A DNA stretch of 8,067 bases from Desulfobacterales bacterium. Its GTDB lineage: Bacteria > Desulfobacterota > Desulfobacteria > Desulfobacterales > JAFDCJ01. The DNA is taken from contig CP070771.1 of the NCBI GenBank assembly GCA_020345785.1, forward strand, positions 5,169,679 to 5,177,745, in the 5' to 3' direction. Below the pieces are notes generated by a model. It did not search any database, was not told where the DNA came from, and saw nothing but the letters and a program-made list of their open reading frames with translations. The stretch's first letter is position 1. Every line of letters begins with the position of its first letter. Both the position numbers and the translations under genes were made by a program. This document shows positions 1 to 8,067 of this stretch, one piece after another.

Positions 1-755
1 ATGCGGTTTTTGTTGTAGAGCAGCATTTTTTTGTAGTCGCCGGGTTGTACGTTGCCGAACGCCATGGCGGCCCGGTTGGCAAAACCCAGGGCAAAAATGG
101 CCGAGGAGATATCCGGGCCGAACGGCACGATGCGGGTATTCCAGCCGATCTGGACCCCGGCCTCGATCAATTGTTGCGTAACAGAGGTGTTGTTCTGGTT
201 GGCTGCCAGGAAGATATAAAGGCTTCTCCTCTGGTAGTCTTCCACGATGTCTTTGGCGATTTCGATTGTGGGCGCCGCTCCCACAATCGCGGCAAACCCC
301 GGTGCGGTGCCGTCGACGAATTCAACCCCTCTTTTACGGAAAACCGTGTCATCCGCGGCCCCCAGCCAGATCTTGCCGGCCTCGATATCCGGCTCTTCGG
401 AATGCAGGTAAAAATCCGGCTGATTCAGATACCGCAGGGCCTCGCGAATCTCGAAACAAAACAGCGTGGCCATGCCGGCATCCAAAAGGGGCCCCAGATA
501 CGGCAGGTGGTTCATGCCCTTGATGTGCGGCGGCAGCAGCTTGCGCGCCACGTCCAGAGGCTTTTTAATATCTTCTAGGGTTTCAACCTTGATTCCCAGC
601 AACGAATAAATGACCGGCAGATAATAGGCCGTGTTGGGAAAGCCGACCTTGGTATCCGCATCGAAGGTTTCCAGAGCGCGTTTGTACTCCCCTTCCACCT
701 GTGAAACGACGTTGTAGCCACCCTGAATGGCGGCAAATGCAACTAACTTTGACAT
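1..755 (-). CDS. acsB: Acetyl-CoA synthase (CODH/ACS alpha subunit), N-terminal part, truncated by the window edge
   Basis: Acetyl-CoA synthase condenses CO, a methyl group from the corrinoid protein and CoA at the Ni-Ni-[4Fe-4S] A-cluster, or runs in reverse to cleave acetyl-CoA. I translated the minus strand from ATG 755-753: 251 codons stay open to the left edge. The protein starts MSKLVAFAAIQGGYNVVSQV, has GFPNTAYYLPVIYSLLGIKV near residues 40-60 and ends with FGNVQPGDYKKMLLYNKNR. These match the first domain of bacterial AcsB, the domain that docks on CODH and carries part of the CO tunnel. Family members are about 730 residues, so roughly a third is visible; the A-cluster cysteines lie outside the window. 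The start is supported by AAGGAGG at 767-761, 5 nt upstream. The gene follows acsA after 166 bp in the same direction, so co-transcription is likely. No frameshift is seen. Confidence 0.95.
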   Translation of the reverse strand, partial: MSKLVAFAAIQGGYNVVSQVEGEYKRALETFDADTKVGFPNTAYYLPVIYSLLGIKVETLEDIKKPLDVARKLLPPHIKGMNHLPYLGPLLDAGMATLFCFEIREALRYLNQPDFYLHSEEPDIEAGKIWLGAADDTVFRKRGVEFVDGTAPGFAAIVGAAPTIEIAKDIVEDYQRRSLYIFLAANQNNTSVTQQLIEAGVQIGWNTRIVPFGPDISSAIFALGFANRAAMAFGNVQPGDYKKMLLYNKNR

Positions 756-921: not shown

Positions 922-2958
922 TTACGCTTCGAGTGCCTGGCGGCTGGCCATATCCATCAGGACCCGCTCGCGGGCTTTGTCGATGCCCAGCTCTTTGCGC
1001 TTTTTATCGATATGGGCAATCATCTTGCGGGCCATCTCGATTGGGTCGGGTGCCAGATCCCACTTGCCGCCGTATATTTTTTCCAGCTCCTCGAACAGAT
1101 GCTTCTGAAAAACCGGGGCACCGGTAATCGGCAGCGTCACACCGAACAGGGTGTAAACCCCGGAGGCGACAAAATACTGGCCGATGCTGATGGCTTTTTC
1201 ACTCATCCATTCGGGCGCTGCCCCGGCAGCCGGCAGATCGCGGATGTCATTGCCCAATCCGCCCGCTTTGACCACCTCGGTGGCGGCCAGCAGAATGCGG
1301 CTGTTGTCCACACAGGATCCCAGGTGCAATACCGGTGGAATACCCACCGTCTCGCAAACCTCGGCCAGGCCCGGCCCACAGAATACACCGGCGGACTCCG
1401 GCGTCAGCAATCCTTCCATGGCGCAGGCAATACCATTGCAGCCGGTGGTCAGGACAATCACGTCATTTTTGATGAGTTCCTTGACCAGGGTGATATGGGC
1501 TTCATTGTGCCGACCTCTGGCGTTGTTGCAGCCGACCACGCCGGCCACACCGCGAATGCGGCCGTTGATGATATTGTCATTCAGGGTGTAGTAAGAACCG
1601 CGGAAGGTGCCTCCCAGATGATATTCAACGGACTCGACGCCGAACCCTGCGATCTGGGCCGCTTTCTGACGCGGAATCATCACCTCGGCGCCGCGGTTTT
1701 CGAAATTATCGATGGCCATGGTGACAATCCGCTTGGCGTCTTCCATGGCATGATGTTCATCAAACTCGATGTGCAGCACATTGTCCTGCTCCATCCGGGC
1801 GATCGGATGGGTGGTGATCAGTTTGGTGTGAAAACATTTGGCCACGTTGGCCAAATTCTGGAAGACACACTGTACATCGACCACCATGGCATCACAAGCG
1901 CCGGTGACAATCGCCAGCTCCTGCTGCAGGAAGGTGCCTGCGGGCGGTACGCCGTGGCGCTGCAAAATCTCGTTGCCGGTGCAGCAAATGCCCCCCAGTT
2001 GAATACCTTTGGCGCCTTTGGATCGGGCATATTCGACCATTTCTTTGGATTGGGCCGCCGCCACGATCATCTCGGAGAGCACCGGTTCATGGCCGTGGAT
2101 GATAATATTGACATGATCCTCTTTCATGATCCCCAGGTTGGCTTCCGACTGCAGCGGAAAGGGTTTGCCGAACATCACGTCCTGCAGATCCGTGGCGATC
2201 ATGGAGCCGCCCCAGCCGTCGGCCAGCGCTGCTCGGGTACATTGCTTGAGGATGTTTTTGTAATCCTGATCCACGCCCATGTGAGTGCGATGCATGATTT
2301 CGACGACTTCGCGGTCGATATTGCGCGGCAGAACTCCCAGTTTTTTCCAGCGTTCATAAAGAGGCTGCGGCGCACGCTTCAGGTAGTAAAGTTCGCCCTC
2401 GGGCTTGCCCCATTCCGCCAGCGCCTTTTTGGCAACTTCCTGCGCAATTTCATCTAAATCGCGGTCAACTTCCTGGCCGGCGACTTCGACCTTGACATCC
2501 ACTCCAAAGTGCGGAGCAATCGCCAGAAGCTTGTTGTAATCCTTGATCTTATAGTCTTCGGTTTCTTTGTGGGCAACGGACATGAACACCTCCGCCACCG
2601 TGCGCCCATGATCGGAATGGGCGGCGCAACCGGCGGCCACCATGCGGGCAAAGTTCCGGGCGGCGATGGTATTGGCGGTCGCCCCGCAAAGTCCCTTGCG
2701 TTCGTCTTCGCCTTGGATGCCGCCTTTGGGCAGCGGCAGACGACAGGGACCCATGGCGCAGTTTTTACAGCAGATACCCTGAATACCGATATTACAGGGT
2801 TTCATAGCAACCGCCCGGTCAAAAATCGTATCTATTCCCAGATCCTGGGCGCGCCTGATCATCTGTTGGGTGGCAACATCAATGGTTGCGGCCACCGGGT
2901 CTGCAAGCTTTTTGGTCTTTTCGGCTTTTACTTCTTGCTTATCAGTTGTTTCTGCCAT
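922..2958 (-). CDS. acsA: Ni-Fe carbon monoxide dehydrogenase, catalytic subunit of the CODH/ACS complex
   Basis: This enzyme reversibly reduces CO2 to CO with ferredoxin and passes CO by an internal tunnel to AcsB. It has 678 residues, close to the 674 of Moorella AcsA. The cluster-binding residues are present. The D- and B-cluster motif is CNIGIQGICCKNCAMGPC, with Cys55, 63, 64, 67 and 72, plus Cys91. Likely C-cluster (Ni-Fe-S) ligands are His288/His290 in HGHEP, Cys325/326 in GGICCTGNE, Cys364 in DVQC, Cys477 in GCNN, Cys507 in TTGCNG and Cys549 in GSCVDNSR. Lys588 in SEKAISIGQY matches the conserved active-site lysine. His114 and His117 (AAHSDHG) fit the proton relay. ATG 2958 is preceded by GGGGAGGAA at 2973-2965. 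The Cys72-Cys91 loop looks about five residues longer than I recall for characterised enzymes. acsD ends 74 bp upstream and acsB follows, so this is probably one transcript. The assignment to the ACS-linked type rests on neighbours and length. Confidence 0.96.
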   Translation of the reverse strand: MAETTDKQEVKAEKTKKLADPVAATIDVATQQMIRRAQDLGIDTIFDRAVAMKPCNIGIQGICCKNCAMGPCRLPLPKGGIQGEDERKGLCGATANTIAARNFARMVAAGCAAHSDHGRTVAEVFMSVAHKETEDYKIKDYNKLLAIAPHFGVDVKVEVAGQEVDRDLDEIAQEVAKKALAEWGKPEGELYYLKRAPQPLYERWKKLGVLPRNIDREVVEIMHRTHMGVDQDYKNILKQCTRAALADGWGGSMIATDLQDVMFGKPFPLQSEANLGIMKEDHVNIIIHGHEPVLSEMIVAAAQSKEMVEYARSKGAKGIQLGGICCTGNEILQRHGVPPAGTFLQQELAIVTGACDAMVVDVQCVFQNLANVAKCFHTKLITTHPIARMEQDNVLHIEFDEHHAMEDAKRIVTMAIDNFENRGAEVMIPRQKAAQIAGFGVESVEYHLGGTFRGSYYTLNDNIINGRIRGVAGVVGCNNARGRHNEAHITLVKELIKNDVIVLTTGCNGIACAMEGLLTPESAGVFCGPGLAEVCETVGIPPVLHLGSCVDNSRILLAATEVVKAGGLGNDIRDLPAAGAAPEWMSEKAISIGQYFVASGVYTLFGVTLPITGAPVFQKHLFEELEKIYGGKWDLAPDPIEMARKMIAHIDKKRKELGIDKARERVLMDMASRQALEA

Positions 2959-3032: not shown

Positions 3033-4595
3033 TTAGATTCTTCGGTGTATCCAGTCCAAATTCTCGACCATCTTTTCAACCATCGACTTCTGAACGGCGG
3101 CCGGCGTCTTGGAAACTTCTTCTTCCCCTGCGGAAGCACGCTTAGCAGCCAGCGCCTCGCGTTCCTTGGCGCGTTTTTGACGAATTGCATCGAGCTCGGA
3201 CTCGGCTTTCGCCTTGGCTTCGGCTGCCTGGCGGGCCGTTTCCTCGGCTTTGGCCTTGACTTCGGCTTCGGCTTTGGCTTTGGCTTCCGCTTCAGCCCTT
3301 ACCCTGGCTTCTTCCTGGGCCTTGGCTTTAGCTTCCGCTTCGGCCTTGGCTTTGGCCTCGGCTTCGGCCTTGGCTTTTTCGTCAACTGCCGCTTCAACCT
3401 TGGGTGCCGCTGCAGCCGGGGCTGCCGGTGCAGGTTCAGGAGCCGGTGCCGCTTTCTTTGCGGGTTCAGCCAGAGCTGCCGCAGGCGCCGCTTCCTTGGC
3501 AGGTGCCGCTGCGGCCGCCTTGGGTGCCGGCGCCGGTTTCTTTTCTTTTTCTTCGGCGATGGTCAGATCCGGTTCAGGAGAAAGCGACAGGAGGTCCAGT
3601 TCCACGTCCGCCAGTTGCTTTTTGATCGGGGCCACATCGGAAGCCATTCCACCTTCATAAACCAGATCGATATATGATTTCACCAGCCGGATGGATTCGG
3701 GGTGACGCATGATTAAAATGTCGGAGCCACTCATCAGGTATGCCACCGCACCCACCGCTTCCATCAGGACGGCGCGCTTTTCCGGATCGCCCAGCAACGG
3801 CGCTTCTGCGGCCGGCTGCTTGGCCTCCTTGCATTTCCAGACTTCATTGCCGAGATTGTTGATAAGTGGCAGCTGCAGCTTGTCATCGCCCTGGGCCAAG
3901 GCCGCCATACGGATTCGTTCCATCACGGAATACGAATATTCCAATCCGTAGCCCAGACCGCCGGTGGTCGGATCGATGATCATGCGATCGGTGGGCATTC
4001 CCAGATTTTCGAGCAGAATATTACATTGTTTGGCGAGGTTGACGTCGATCGGTGAGGACGCAATGACGGTGTGGCCGAAACCCATGGCAGCCGCCCCGAT
4101 GCCCTTGTGGTTCTTGTCCTCCACCGGGCCCAGGATCAGATTTTCTCCCTGACATTCTTCAGCGATTTTCTTTAGTACTTCCTCGTCTTTTTCGACATTG
4201 GCGGTGCCCCAGATGATCAAGGGAACATCCACGGCTCCCAGGACTTTTTTGACGGTGGCGACCGCCTCAGCCGCCGGTGCATCATTGCCGTTGGGGTCGG
4301 TACTTTTGAGCTGCAGAACAATCATATCGGCACCGAACTCCTCCACACACTTTTTCGCCCAGGCGGCAGGATCGGAAACCACATCTTTGAAAGGTGCAAG
4401 CGCTGCTTCCGGCCACTCATCCGGTTTCATATCCCAGATTTCCATGGCTATTTTAGGTTTGTTGGGCATCGCCCCTTCGAACTGATAAAATGGATAGCAT
4501 GCCTGTCCTCCGACAGTAACGGCTTTATCCCCCTTTCCCAGGGCGATTTCCTTGATGCTGCCGGTATAGGATTCTTTAAAAAATTCAAAAGCCAA
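3033..4595 (-). CDS. acsD: Corrinoid iron-sulfur protein small subunit (CODH/ACS delta), with a long C-terminal extension
   Basis: AcsD pairs with AcsC to form the CFeSP, which carries the methyl group on cobalamin between the AcsE methyltransferase and AcsB. The protein is 520 residues from TTG 4595-4593. Residues 1 to about 318 are the usual TIM-barrel subunit, with VGGQACYPFYQFEG near 28-41, DMIVLQLKSTDPNG near 90-103, IDPTTGGLGYGLEYSYSV at 207-224 and SGSDILIMRHPES near 289-301. Known bacterial AcsD is about 310-325 residues. The rest is extra: an Ala/Pro-rich stretch (about 350-400), a Lys/Ala/Glu-rich helix (about 401-490) and a tail ending MVENLDWIHRRI. The frame is open upstream to ATG 4727. 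I prefer TTG because AAGGAGG (4607-4601) sits 5 nt before it and the family N-terminus MAFEFFKESYTGSI begins there. AcsC is not adjacent, unlike the acsCD pairs of acetogens. Confidence 0.93.
   Translation of the reverse strand: MAFEFFKESYTGSIKEIALGKGDKAVTVGGQACYPFYQFEGAMPNKPKIAMEIWDMKPDEWPEAALAPFKDVVSDPAAWAKKCVEEFGADMIVLQLKSTDPNGNDAPAAEAVATVKKVLGAVDVPLIIWGTANVEKDEEVLKKIAEECQGENLILGPVEDKNHKGIGAAAMGFGHTVIASSPIDVNLAKQCNILLENLGMPTDRMIIDPTTGGLGYGLEYSYSVMERIRMAALAQGDDKLQLPLINNLGNEVWKCKEAKQPAAEAPLLGDPEKRAVLMEAVGAVAYLMSGSDILIMRHPESIRLVKSYIDLVYEGGMASDVAPIKKQLADVELDLLSLSPEPDLTIAEEKEKKPAPAPKAAAAAPAKEAAPAAALAEPAKKAAPAPEPAPAAPAAAAPKVEAAVDEKAKAEAEAKAKAEAEAKAKAQEEARVRAEAEAKAKAEAEVKAKAEETARQAAEAKAKAESELDAIRQKRAKEREALAAKRASAGEEEVSKTPAAVQKSMVEKMVENLDWIHRRI
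3126..3548 (-). repeat. Low-complexity segment in acsD: Ala/Pro linker and Lys/Ala/Glu helical repeat
   Basis: The DNA is made of degenerate 6- and 12-base units (plus strand: GGCTTTGGC, GGCTTCGGC, GGCCTTGGC and similar). They encode first PAPAP/AAPAP-type sequence (AcsD residues about 350-400, nt 3548-3396) and then KAKAEAEA-type sequence (about 401-490, nt 3395-3126). The first part resembles the mobile Ala-Pro linkers of multienzyme complexes. The second is a predicted long charged helix like that of TolA. Such tracts expand and contract by replication slippage, so length may vary between relatives. It also creates long spurious open frames on the other strand. Confidence 0.85.
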
Positions 4596-4896: not shown

Positions 4897-6849
4897 TTAA
4901 ACCAGATTCAATTTTTTCAAGGCTTCCAGGCGGGATTTCAATTTGGGAAACTGGTTCATGTCGGTGTGGGGCAAAAAGAGGGCAGCCACATAATTATCCA
5001 TGTAGGAGTTGGTATCGGACAATTCAAAATTTGTCATTTTTTTAGTTACTTCCACAACATCCTTGCGGATGCGGTTGGTCAGCGAACTCATCCGGGCCCC
5101 CATCAATGATCCGTTGCCGATAAACGTAACTTTGTCGGCGTCCAGCTCCGGCAGAAGGCCGATTGTCATGGCTTTCTCAAGATCGACATAACTGCCGAAT
5201 CCCCCGGCCAGGATAATGTGCTCGATGTCGCCGATACCCATTCCCACTTCGGTTAGCAGGGTCATGCAGCCACTGTAAATGGCACCTTTAGCCCGAATGA
5301 AATTCTCAATATCTATTTCCGTCAGGGTAACATCACGGTCGATCTGGGTTTCATCTTTCCACGCCAGGACGTACTCGTAAACGCCTTTGTCTTCACGAAT
5401 GCGAGGGGTCTCCAGGTCGCGGTCAAATTTGCCCAGATTGTTAATAATCCCCATTTCAAACATGACAGCCACCATTGTGATTAGTCCGGATCCGCAAATG
5501 CCTTTGGGCCGAACATTACCAATTGTGATAATCATAGGTTCGAGGGTGACCGGATCAATGGAAAAATCCTCGATCGCCCCTTTGGCGGCGCGCATGCCAA
5601 ACTTCAGCCCTCCCCCTTCAAAAGCCGGACCGGCGGAACAGGCGGCACAAGCCAGCCAGTCTTTGTTGCCGATCACAATTTCGGCATTGGTCCCCACATC
5701 CAGATAGAGGGTAAGCTCATCTGACCGGTATATCCCGGATCCCATCACACCGGCCACGATATCTCCCCCCACATAACTGGAAACCGCAGGATAAACCAGG
5801 GCAGTTACATGTTCACCCAGATCCATACCCAGCTCGGTGGCTTTAATCGGCGGATAGAGGGTAGCAGCGGGGACATAAGGTGCGCGCCGGATAGACCAGG
5901 GATTGACTTTCAGCATCAGCTGGGTCATGGTGGTGTTGCCGGCCAACGTGATGGTGGAAATATCTTCCGGATCAACCCCGGATCGATGAACGATTTTTCC
6001 TAAAATTTTGTTGATGGTTTTAATGACAACCTCGTTAATTTTTGCCAGACCGCCGGGTTTTTCCGCGTAAACGATTCGGGAGATGACATCCTCGCCATAA
6101 CTGATCTGCCCGTTGAATTCACCGTGTTCAGCCAAAACCTCACCGCTGATAAGATCGATGACCTGCCCATAAATCGTCGTTGTGCCGATGTCCATGGCGA
6201 TGGCATAGTTGTGTTGGGTCGTATCACCGGGCTGCACATTGATGATGCGGGTCTTGCCGACATCCCGCACCGGGCGGACCAGGGTTGCCGTCATTTTGAA
6301 ATCCTCTTGACGAATCACCTCCGTTATTTTACGAATCACCGCTAGATCGACCTCCAGGCGATGCTCATCGTGTTTAAGTTTGAGGTAGCTGATCATGCGG
6401 GTGACATCCGGCAGGTTGTCCTGGGCCGTGGGTTCAGGCAGTTCCAAATATTTTTTTTCTACCGGGGCCACAAAGAGCCCCTTTTCCTTGAGCTCTTCAA
6501 AATTCATAGACCGGATATGGGCGGTGCGCCGCGGCGCGGCCTGCAGCTTAAGCACACTTGCATCAATGGTCGATTCAACCGGGATTCGAACAATCAGGTC
6601 ACTTTTAACAGCCGCCTGACAGGCCAGCCGATAGCCTGCGGCCAGATCTTCCTCGCTCAACATTTCTGTAATGCCGCCGTCCACCGTGCCCTCTTCAATC
6701 AGAATCCGGCATTTCCCGCATACGCCCTCCCCGCCGCAGGAGGCATTCACATGAACACCTGCCTCCATGGCTGCCCGAATCAACGTGTCGCCCTCTGCGA
6801 CTTCGATTTGCATATTATGGGGCAAAAATTTGATTTTGTGTTTGTTCAA
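4897..6849 (-). CDS. acsV: Reductive activator of the corrinoid iron-sulfur protein (RACo), [2Fe-2S]/ASKHA ATPase
   Basis: RACo uses ATP to push one electron uphill onto Co(II) of the CFeSP and return it to the methyl-accepting Co(I) state. The 650 residues match the family (about 630 in Carboxydothermus). An N-terminal ferredoxin domain (about 1-95) has the [2Fe-2S] ligands Cys38, Cys44, Cys47 and Cys77 in NASCGGEGVCGKC and YRLACQ. A linker and middle region (about 96-210) follow, then the ASKHA ATPase domain. This has the phosphate loops AMDIGTTTIYG (218-228) and LDVGTNAEIVIG (383-394), CAACSAGPAFEGGG (401-414) and the adenosine motif ILAGGFGSY (546-554). The start is TTG 6849-6847, chosen because AAGGAAG (6862-6856) lies 6 nt upstream; the first in-frame ATG (codon 13) would cut into the ferredoxin fold. 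The neighbouring acsD encodes a subunit of its substrate. Related ASKHA activators serve O-demethylases, but this context favours AcsV. Confidence 0.93.
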   Translation of the reverse strand: MNKHKIKFLPHNMQIEVAEGDTLIRAAMEAGVHVNASCGGEGVCGKCRILIEEGTVDGGITEMLSEEDLAAGYRLACQAAVKSDLIVRIPVESTIDASVLKLQAAPRRTAHIRSMNFEELKEKGLFVAPVEKKYLELPEPTAQDNLPDVTRMISYLKLKHDEHRLEVDLAVIRKITEVIRQEDFKMTATLVRPVRDVGKTRIINVQPGDTTQHNYAIAMDIGTTTIYGQVIDLISGEVLAEHGEFNGQISYGEDVISRIVYAEKPGGLAKINEVVIKTINKILGKIVHRSGVDPEDISTITLAGNTTMTQLMLKVNPWSIRRAPYVPAATLYPPIKATELGMDLGEHVTALVYPAVSSYVGGDIVAGVMGSGIYRSDELTLYLDVGTNAEIVIGNKDWLACAACSAGPAFEGGGLKFGMRAAKGAIEDFSIDPVTLEPMIITIGNVRPKGICGSGLITMVAVMFEMGIINNLGKFDRDLETPRIREDKGVYEYVLAWKDETQIDRDVTLTEIDIENFIRAKGAIYSGCMTLLTEVGMGIGDIEHIILAGGFGSYVDLEKAMTIGLLPELDADKVTFIGNGSLMGARMSSLTNRIRKDVVEVTKKMTNFELSDTNSYMDNYVAALFLPHTDMNQFPKLKSRLEALKKLNLV

Positions 6850-6866: not shown

Positions 6867-7068
6867 AGGTTTCAGGTTTCGGGTTTCAGGTGTCAGGTAT
6901 CAGAAGATAGAGGGCAGAAGACAGATAACAGAGATCATGTGCAACTTCACGTGGCCGGAACATTGAACAGAGTGAACGTCAAAAATCGATGTTCGATGTT
7001 CATTAGTTTCATTTCCGATCAATCTGCTCTCCTTCGGTAGTCAGAGGTTAGGCTGACACCTGAAACCT
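6867..7068. repeat. Intergenic element with nested inverted repeats upstream of acsV
   Basis: The outer arms are a perfect 15-bp inverted repeat: GGTTTCAGGTGTCAG at 6882-6896 and its complement at 7053-7067. A second fit, AGGTTTCAGG at 6867-6876 with CCTGAAACCT at 7059-7068, arises because the left arm holds degenerate tandem copies of a GTTTCAG-like unit. An inner inverted repeat, GAACATTGAACA at 6958-6969 with TGTTCGATGTTC at 6990-7001, matches at 11 of 12 positions around a 20-base loop. There is no ORF of note inside. The size (about 200 bp) and terminal repeats fit a MITE-like element or a family of palindromic intergenic repeats. It separates acsV from the upstream acyl-CoA hydrolase gene and must contain or displace any acsV promoter. 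No convincing -35/-10 pair was found in it. Confidence 0.55.
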
Positions 7069-7080
7069 TTAGCCAATCAA

Positions 7081-7098
7081 CTTATTCAACTTATTCAA
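7081..7098. repeat. Two-copy 9-bp tandem repeat
   Basis: CTTATTCAA occurs twice head to tail, just downstream of the stop codon of the upstream gene on the transcribed strand and next to the inverted-repeat element. It may be the edge of that element. Confidence 0.5.
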
Positions 7099-7117
7099 CC
7101 CAATCCACCCAACAAAT

Positions 7118-8067
7118 TCAAAGCGGTTCATCAAACTTGCATTTCAAGATCAGGATGTCGCCATCAAAAAAGGTGTTCACTTTGTAAGGCAATTGATTAA
7201 AAAGTTTTATCATACCCCGATTTTGGGGAGAAGTGTAGGCAACTAATCCGGAAATGTCATTTTCCTTGGCCGCTGATGCCAGCTTTTTTATCAGAATCCC
7301 GCCGAGTCCTTTTTTTTGATAGTCCCTGCTGATAGAAAAGGCGATTTCAGCAATATTGGTAGCCGGATCGATCAAATACTCGCCGATACCCACCACCCGG
7401 CCGAAACCGAATTCGCCGACCAGCAACACGAGGGTTAAATCTTTGACATAGTCGATCTGAGAAACCCCTTCGGCCTCTTCTTTGACAAAGGTGGTTTTTT
7501 CATGGAAAAACCTGGCGATGACATCGTCCTTGTCCAGGTTGTAGAAATGTTCTTGAATTCTTCTTTCATCCACCGGTTTAGCCGGCCGAATCGTCACCTG
7601 CTCTCCGTTGATTTCCAGGGTTTCTTCCAGATGGATGGGGTAGACACCGTGGATGGATTCATGCAGCGTTCGTTCAGTGCTTAGAAGCCCCATTTTTTTG
7701 GCTTTAAAAAAGAGTTCATCCCTGAAATTCGGATGAGCAATGCCGATCAACGCCATGGCCCGTTCCTGAAGGCTTTTACCGAATAAATTAACCGACCCGA
7801 ACTCGGTCACCACCAGATGCACATCGCCCCGGGGCGCTGCGACCGCCGTGTCATCAAGCATGGGAACGATGCGACTTTTGGTTCCCTGCATGGCAGTAGA
7901 AGGCAGCATCAATATGGACTTGCCGCCCGGCGACTGAACCGCTCCCCGCATAAAATCAGAAATGCCGGTAATTCCTGAAAAATGTGTTTGCGGCATGGCA
8001 TCGGCCGCCACCTGGCCGGTCAAGTCAATGGCCATGGCGACGCTCATTGCGACCATTTTATTGTGGC
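7118..8067 (-). CDS. Acetyl-CoA hydrolase/CoA-transferase fused to a C-terminal GNAT acetyltransferase, 5' end outside the window
   Basis: The reading frame is open through the right edge; codons before the internal Met at 8056 read H-N-K and fit the family, so the true start lies outside. Counting from that Met, residues 1 to about 125 are the C-terminal domain of acetyl-CoA hydrolase/4-hydroxybutyrate CoA-transferase proteins: IDLTGQV, GGKSILMLPSTA, SRIVP, VVTEFGSVNLFGKSLQERA and LIGIAHPNFRDEL. Residues about 153-308 form a GNAT domain: VTIRPAKPVDERRIQEHF, then the CoA-binding motif A with ISRDYQKKGLGGILIKKLA, then AYTSPQNRGMIKLF. The family's catalytic glutamate lies upstream, out of view. 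This two-domain architecture is a known family. In this context it could exchange CoA between acetate and acetyl-CoA, while the GNAT part could acetylate protein lysines or bind acetyl-CoA as a sensor; both are inference. It is probably a separate transcription unit from acsV. Confidence 0.88.
   Translation of the reverse strand, partial: HNKMVAMSVAMAIDLTGQVAADAMPQTHFSGITGISDFMRGAVQSPGGKSILMLPSTAMQGTKSRIVPMLDDTAVAAPRGDVHLVVTEFGSVNLFGKSLQERAMALIGIAHPNFRDELFFKAKKMGLLSTERTLHESIHGVYPIHLEETLEINGEQVTIRPAKPVDERRIQEHFYNLDKDDVIARFFHEKTTFVKEEAEGVSQIDYVKDLTLVLLVGEFGFGRVVGIGEYLIDPATNIAEIAFSISRDYQKKGLGGILIKKLASAAKENDISGLVAYTSPQNRGMIKLFNQLPYKVNTFFDGDILILKCKFDEPL

Follow-up and report, generated by a model that had tools for sequence, protein, structure and literature searches.

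The methyl carrier encoded in the window (the whole stretch of 8,067 nucleotides analysed here) probably does not float freely but is tied to its enzymes by a leash. We lean, somewhat beyond an even chance, towards the view that the C-terminal 175 residues of AcsD, the CFeSP small subunit, are the leash, and that its tail is held on the CODH/ACS core, most likely on AcsA near its contact with AcsB. A physical leash is the best reading because AcsD is found naturally fused, elsewhere in the phylum, to CODH or to MetF (methylenetetrahydrofolate reductase), and because the tail, which is present and partly invariant in the relatives, matched only AcsD or a split-off arm gene in the genomes searched. 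The tail is placed on the CODH/ACS core because the C-terminal fusion partner of AcsD is CODH, and because an inner motif of the tail tends to be lost where acsA has moved out of the operon; on the same comparisons of genes and sequences, AcsA would be favoured over AcsB and AcsV as the partner within the core, and nothing was found that points to AcsV. The MetF fusions imply, for their part, that a leash can also lead elsewhere than to the core. The sequence-only reading of this DNA had proposed a flexible arm tethering the CFeSP to the CODH/ACS core, to AcsV or to a cell structure: the tether has gained from these observations, and AcsA is favoured as its putative partner. That reading also took the physically coupled carrier as a mark of this organism, which was too narrow, as most of the organism's relatives have the arm too and several arm types exist in the phylum.

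Results

The acsD gene and the AcsD core

On the minus strand, the window carries the end of a CoA-transferase/acetyltransferase gene, acsV, acsD, acsA and the start of acsB, in this order (Table 1). The start codon of acsD is the TTG at 4595, with AAGGAGG five bases before it, and this start, which gives 520 residues, was taken in place of a 564-residue ORF. The ORF, the Ala/Pro stretch, the KAKAEAEA stretch and the ending MVENLDWIHRRI are all where the sequence-only reading had put them, its coordinates 3033-3563 corresponding to residues 345-520 plus the stop codon.

Table 1. Genes of the window and parts of AcsD, with their positions in the window
Feature	Position	Strand	Basis
acsB (acetyl-CoA synthase), 5' part, truncated by the window edge	3..755	minus	NF040764 and CODH_A_N matches
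acsA (CODH), next downstream of acsD	922..2958	minus	TIGR01702, 610 bits (cut-off 478)
acsD, encoding AcsD, the CFeSP small subunit (520 aa)	3036-4595	minus	
AcsD core, residues 1-345	3561..4595	minus	NF003377, PF03599, Foldseek
Ala/Pro linker, residues 346-405	3381..3560	minus	composition; pLDDT
KAKAEAEA repeat part of the long helix, residues 406-460	3216..3380	minus	AlphaFold helix; i,i+4 charge pairing; DNA repeat
Conserved tail, residues 461-520: helix end (ELDxIRQKRAxERE), loop, terminal helix	3036..3215	minus	homologues; tail model
Inner motif TPAAVQKS, residues 497-504	3084..3107	minus	
Terminal helix MVEKMVENLDWIHRR, residues 505-519	3039..3083	minus	AlphaFold helix 505-519
acsV (corrinoid activation protein), upstream of acsD	4897..6849	minus	NF040756, 690.8 bits, under the cut-off of 800; RACo domains
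3' part of a gene with a CoA-transferase C-terminal domain and a GNAT acetyltransferase	7118-8056	minus	

AcsD scores 679.9 bits against NF003377 (cut-off 527) and 169.8 against PF03599 (cut-off 24.8), and reaches 336.2 against the bacterial model NF040759, below its cut-off of 430. Its best Foldseek matches are 4djd_D, 2h9a_B, 2ycl_B and 9fzy_E, and the match with 4djd_D (E 6.9e-34, TMt 0.91) gives it the barrel fold of the solved subunits; it is this fold, together with the profile score above cut-off and the company of acsA, acsB and acsV, that identifies the protein as AcsD. The acetogen subunits (4djd_D, 2h9a_B, 9fzy_E) share the barrel at 39-45% identity over 304-329 alignment columns, but the solved chains, of 307-323 residues, are without linker, helix and tail, whereas AcsD has all three. 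The description of bacterial AcsD as a tailless protein of 310-325 residues is right for the solved acetogen proteins and for many Desulfobacterota, but among the relatives of the window the arm is the rule. The AcsD fold had been taken to end at about residue 318; in the homologue alignment the conserved sequence runs further, to about residue 350 (PEPDLTIxEEK), and the NF003377 profile already covers part of the extension.

Linker and long helix

The linker contains 28 Ala and 12 Pro in its 60 residues and is predicted to be disordered, the AlphaFold pLDDT being below 50 across most of 348-409 (model of AcsD from an alignment of 41 sequences, mean pLDDT 75.5). A single long charged helix is then modelled across residues 408-488. 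The KAKAEAEA repeat, previously drawn at 401-490, is indeed there, but is regular only at about 406-460, where it contains a 24-base DNA repeat (3244-3377), while 461-488 is a conserved and less regular stretch of that one helix. Opposite charges are paired at i,i+4 in 25 cases in the helix, against a mean of 9.7 after shuffling (none of 10,000 shuffles reaches 25), and like charges recur more often at i+8 (22) than at i+7 (7); for both reasons the sequence suggests a self-stabilised single helix, not a heptad coiled coil. Pooled over 16 gene pairs, some of which have a member in common, pN/pS is 0.08 for the core, 0.19 for the linker and 0.21 for both the repeat and the tail, so all parts of the arm are under purifying selection.

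The tail

The ending of AcsD recurs in 119 of the 120 homologues listed (best 120 of 4807), and R472, R475, E478, R479, T497, Q502, K503 and W515 are invariant in all 120. Within this same set the mean entropy is 0.87 bit for 401-460, 0.61 for 461-476, 1.03 for 477-494, 0.38 for 495-505 and 0.84 for 506-520. The expectation that the tail would be more conserved than the repeat is thus borne out for the islands 461-476 and 495-505, but not for the tail overall, which evolves about as fast; as its pN/pS equals that of the repeat, we rejected this ratio as evidence that the tail is specially conserved.

A model of the tail found a single match per genome in 13 of 16 genomes (E<=0.01), 22 of 247 (E<=0.001) and 5 of 10 (E<=0.1), the three sets overlapping in part, and no second match in any genome of these sets. 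The matches sit in frames of AcsD length (515-590 aa) with three exceptions, namely the split gene of locus L073 (L090; see below) and two short frames close to contig starts (L105 and L109); the match in L087 contains a TAA. Apart from AcsD and the split arm gene, nothing in the genomes searched matched the model, and because of this the tail would, at the sensitivity of the search, belong to AcsD alone.

The arm among close relatives

From a scan of species genomes we kept the best 80 of 213 loci, which come from Desulfobacterales taxa or Deltaproteobacteria, with two (L003 and L079) named less specifically. Contig ends cut four of them (L061, L062, L068, L069), and among the 76 complete loci the arm is present in 74, missing from L043 (Eth-SRB2) and split in L073. 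Desulfosarcina widdelii (L067) and Desulfonema magnum (L016) are among the species that have it. In the 74 arm-bearing loci the length from the core to the end varies from 162 to 224 residues (median 177), that is, a spacer of variable length precedes the conserved tail. Eth-SRB2 has AcsA, AcsB, AcsC and AcsE all present with its armless AcsD, and thus the arm is dispensable at least there. In this organism (L043, L243, L248) the armless AcsD adjoins an acsA, and a second acsA lies elsewhere with acsB-acsC-acsE, over two contigs; the arrangement is possibly an assembly effect.

In L073 (9572-11313), acsD ends after the Ala/Pro linker and a new domain of about 50 residues, for which Pfam gave no match above cut-off. 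A separate gene of 147 residues overlaps the end of acsD as TGATG and directly precedes acsA; its product, which starts MAIDLFADEPKEGAKDLFADSPK, has a short start with DLFADxPK twice, then the charged helix and then the tail. L058, the nearest locus on the tree, has an ordinary one-piece arm. The split, seen in one genome only, indicates that helix and tail are a separable module that stays with the operon, and at a guess the two copies of DLFADxPK may attach to the new domain, which would rebuild the leash non-covalently.

Among the loci compared, AcsB starts are LVAFAAIQG-like with the Ala/Pro-helix arms and SAAIRGAH-like with the others, with the exception of L179. We did not retain the AcsB N-terminus as a correlate of the arm: it may track kinship instead, since L179 is armless and has the LVAFAAIQG-like start.

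Arm types and fusions across the phylum

AcsD was found in 161 genomes of a phylum sample of 247, and the 150 matches listed comprise 36 frames of 497-556 aa, 21 of 722-1174 aa and 93 shorter ones. The 36 intermediate frames, judged from tail matches or from the loci themselves, divide into the window's type with its diverged forms (23), a second Ala/Pro-helix type ending in ..LERWRLRGDGILRR (6) and an extension of non-Ala/Pro type (7; L149, L151, L153 and L157-L160), whose ending ..LHYWYGEGYGSERRKKPA is strongly conserved (GYGSE[RK]RKKPA) and in which no sequence likeness to the window's arm is evident. Most of the shorter frames that were fetched stop within a few residues of the core, and a few (L140, L162) break off within an Ala/Pro linker where the contig stops.

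Of the 21 long frames 16 were examined, and all 16 are fusions. In two (L163 and L164, the latter confirmed with Pfam) AcsD, an Ala/Pro linker and AcsA form one ORF, and in the other 14 (L165-L178; Pfam on L172 and L178) MetF precedes AcsD through a linker of 102-442 residues, 8-42% of them Ala plus Pro, in some cases with KAEA-type helices. The 14 MetF-AcsD ORFs stop 3-8 residues past the AcsD core, with no C-terminal arm, and the AcsD part of both AcsA fusions starts as early as residue 8-14, which means that none of the 16 is tethered at both ends. Searches with single fusion proteins, each counted in its own result, listed AcsD-CODH fusions in 62 of 120 for L164 (best 120 of 498), including P0166 of the isolate Desulfomonile tiedjei, and MTHFR plus AcsD domains in 120 of 120 for L172 (best 120 of 719). 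The databases already contain AcsD fusions, mostly named for one half; the name of P0206 gives both the MetF and the AcsD halves.

Relatives of the MetF-AcsD ORFs in the databases also bear several repeat-family Pfam accessions, which we take to be tetratricopeptide repeats. The genome of L163 (G118) has, besides its AcsD-AcsA fusion, a second AcsD, encoded on the opposite strand at a distance of about 10 kb; this copy ends in an Ala/Pro extension of 129 residues and is unjoined to AcsA. AcsC and AcsE form a single ORF of about 800 aa in L173 (8111-10561) and in L184.

The inner motif and the position of acsA

We scored the inner motif, TPAxxQKS, strictly as T[PA]xxxQ, a pattern chosen after the tails had been seen, and assigned loci to the arm lineage with a tree built on the AcsD cores. 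The arm lineage of the window includes 10 loci in which the gene after acsD is acsB and not acsA, and nine of them miss the strict motif, the exception being L046, which keeps it though the best acsA in its genome is only 55%; by eye, a similar terminal helix is kept in the motif-less lineages. Most of the genomes in which acsB follows are metagenome assemblies, maybe incomplete or mixed. Of the nine motif-less genomes, six have a CODH of 56-58% or weaker (G262, G266, G010, G011, G119, G049), two (G265 and G264) keep an acsA of 77-80% as a separate gene, and one (G263) has acsA pieces; in terms of loci, the motif is absent from L036 and L026 despite an acsA of 77-80% identity elsewhere, and acsA pieces are found in the genome of L023.

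Among the 110 rows of the tree, acsA lies next to acsD in 92, and 69 of these have the strict motif. The 23 that do not are 12 other arm types, 7 KVAEVQ-like variants, two near variants (L004 and L034), the split L073 and the armless L043; with 12 of the 23 being other arm types, AcsA does not require the strict motif. In five independent pairs on well-supported branches (101 rows), the change went in the same direction in 3.3 on average and in the opposite one in 0.0 (sign test, median p 0.25). That the inner motif is lost where acsA has moved out of the operon is thus a lead, resting on few independent events and not significant. Tail and AcsA were also folded as a single chain, for which the AcsD tail of 19 in-frame loci was read through the stop codon and the intergenic DNA into AcsA; the result was a poor model (mean pLDDT 50.6) that lends no support either way.

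Discussion

How the leash would work

We infer that the tail binds a protein, that this partner lies within the CODH/ACS core, and that the inner motif and the terminal helix touch different subunits. The flexible Ala/Pro linker and the stiff helix of about 80 residues would let the CFeSP heterodimer (AcsC-AcsD) swing between its stations, namely the methyl donor AcsE, the reactivator AcsV and the A-cluster of AcsB, with the conserved tail remaining bound to the core, most likely to AcsA near the AcsB contact; on the simplest view of arm, fusions and split taken as one, selection would maintain a physical link between AcsD and other pathway enzymes. A broader picture, possible in our view but held tentatively, is that in a large part of the Desulfobacterota the corrinoid protein of the Wood-Ljungdahl pathway is never free and is leashed in at least three ways: (i) by a docking arm, of several types; (ii) by fusion to CODH; and (iii) by fusion to MetF. 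In that picture the tail of the window's lineage binds at two places, to AcsA through the inner motif and to AcsB through the terminal helix, and the whole is a bacterial counterpart of the archaeal ACDS.

Could the leash lead to the methyl-supply side instead, the tail binding MetF or AcsE as in the MetF-AcsD fusions, without the covalent link? In the phylum such fusions occur often (14 of the ORFs examined; 120 of 120 listed, best 120 of 719), and none of the 14 ORFs is also armed at its C-terminus, as expected if a MetF fusion and an arm were equivalent. However, MetF sits at the N-terminus of AcsD, and the arm extends the C-terminus, the end to which AcsA is fused; in addition, the motif was lost with the departure of acsA in 3.3 of the 5 independent pairs and the opposite occurred in 0.0 on average (not significant), and we regard this destination as unlikely. 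It is less probable again that helix and tail act in a TolA-like manner, by oligomerising the CFeSP or binding a cell structure, for instance the membrane or the cytoskeleton: the weak similarity of the repeat to TolA (25.7 bits) lies far under the cut-off (59.45) and falls on a low-complexity stretch, the 8-residue charge period misfits a heptad coiled coil, the neighbouring genes are those of CODH/ACS, and the fusions to CODH and MetF would be hard to account for.

We give still less credence to a tail that docks on the CFeSP itself, whether on the barrel of AcsD or on AcsC, where it would have a regulatory effect on the corrinoid domain. AlphaFold of AcsD alone neither shows nor rules out such self-docking (pLDDT 62-69 at 501-520) and is all that can be quoted on its behalf, but a linker of about 60 residues followed by a helix of about 80 would seem a poor design for contacting its own domain, and the fusions join AcsD to other enzymes. 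That the arm is functionless low-complexity filler of a GC-rich gene is hardly credible: the stretch does contain simple DNA repeats, and repeat and linker vary in length, but pN/pS is about 0.2, tail residues are invariant and the arm occurs in 74 of the 76 complete loci.

If a leash to the enzymes is the true reading, the complex would be held together for cryo-EM, and it might help sulfate reducers to run the pathway at a low free-energy change. The natural AcsD-CODH and MetF-AcsD fusions would then be ready-made for engineering one-carbon fixation. For CODH/ACS with CFeSP there is one solved complex (9fzy), and the shuttling of the carrier among ACS, methyltransferase and activator is still debated.

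Comparison with known systems

In the E2 lipoyl domains of 2-oxoacid dehydrogenases the carrier is borne on an Ala/Pro linker with a docking element. AcsD would resemble such swinging arms in its residues 346-405, predicted to be disordered from pLDDT, and in the conserved tail that follows as a putative docking element, but its domains are unrelated, a stiff helix stands between linker and putative docking tail, and what is carried is a corrinoid protein. TolA has an N-terminal membrane anchor, a long helix rich in Ala, Lys and Glu, and a C-terminal globular domain. The AcsD arm is like TolA domain II (TIGR02794) in its long Ala/Lys/Glu-rich helix, a likeness of composition only, and membership of that family was rejected, with 25.7 bits against the cut-off of 59.45, an AcsD barrel at the N-terminus and a short helix at the C-terminus of the model.

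In the available part of PMC11474084, the acetogen CFeSP is described as a standalone protein, whereas in the methanogen ACDS, of 2.2 MDa, CFeSP is stably held with CODH and ACS. ACDS is thus a physically coupled methyl carrier as in the leash reading of AcsD, but it is archaeal, and in the same part of that paper CFeSP is described with no arm of linker, helix and tail, an unresolved extension of about 75 residues being placed on ACS instead. In an AlphaFold3 model the N-terminal domain of ACS contacts the CFeSP beta subunit (PMC12289521), which is here taken to be AcsD, and the ACS domain of this contact model is the one that binds CODH in acetogens (PMC11474084). These published statements fit the leash reading. 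We found no description of the AcsD arm or fusions as a tether in the open-access literature searched, at the level of titles and abstract starts; the words fusion, fused, extension and linker are absent from the main text of PMC12827605, and the word "fused" from PMC10553843.

Other features of the window

In several loci, L046 and L074 among them, acsV/acsD are preceded on the upstream side by full-length relatives of the CoA-transferase/GNAT gene, whose product has about 624 aa in L073. Two plus-strand ORFs face the arm, at 3045-3677 (210 aa) and 3214-3660 (148 aa), and are probably a by-product of repetitive GC-rich codons and not genes. Between acsV and the gene upstream of it there are short tandem repeats, AGGTTTC x5.3 (6867-6903) and TCAACTTAT x2.6 (7077-7099).
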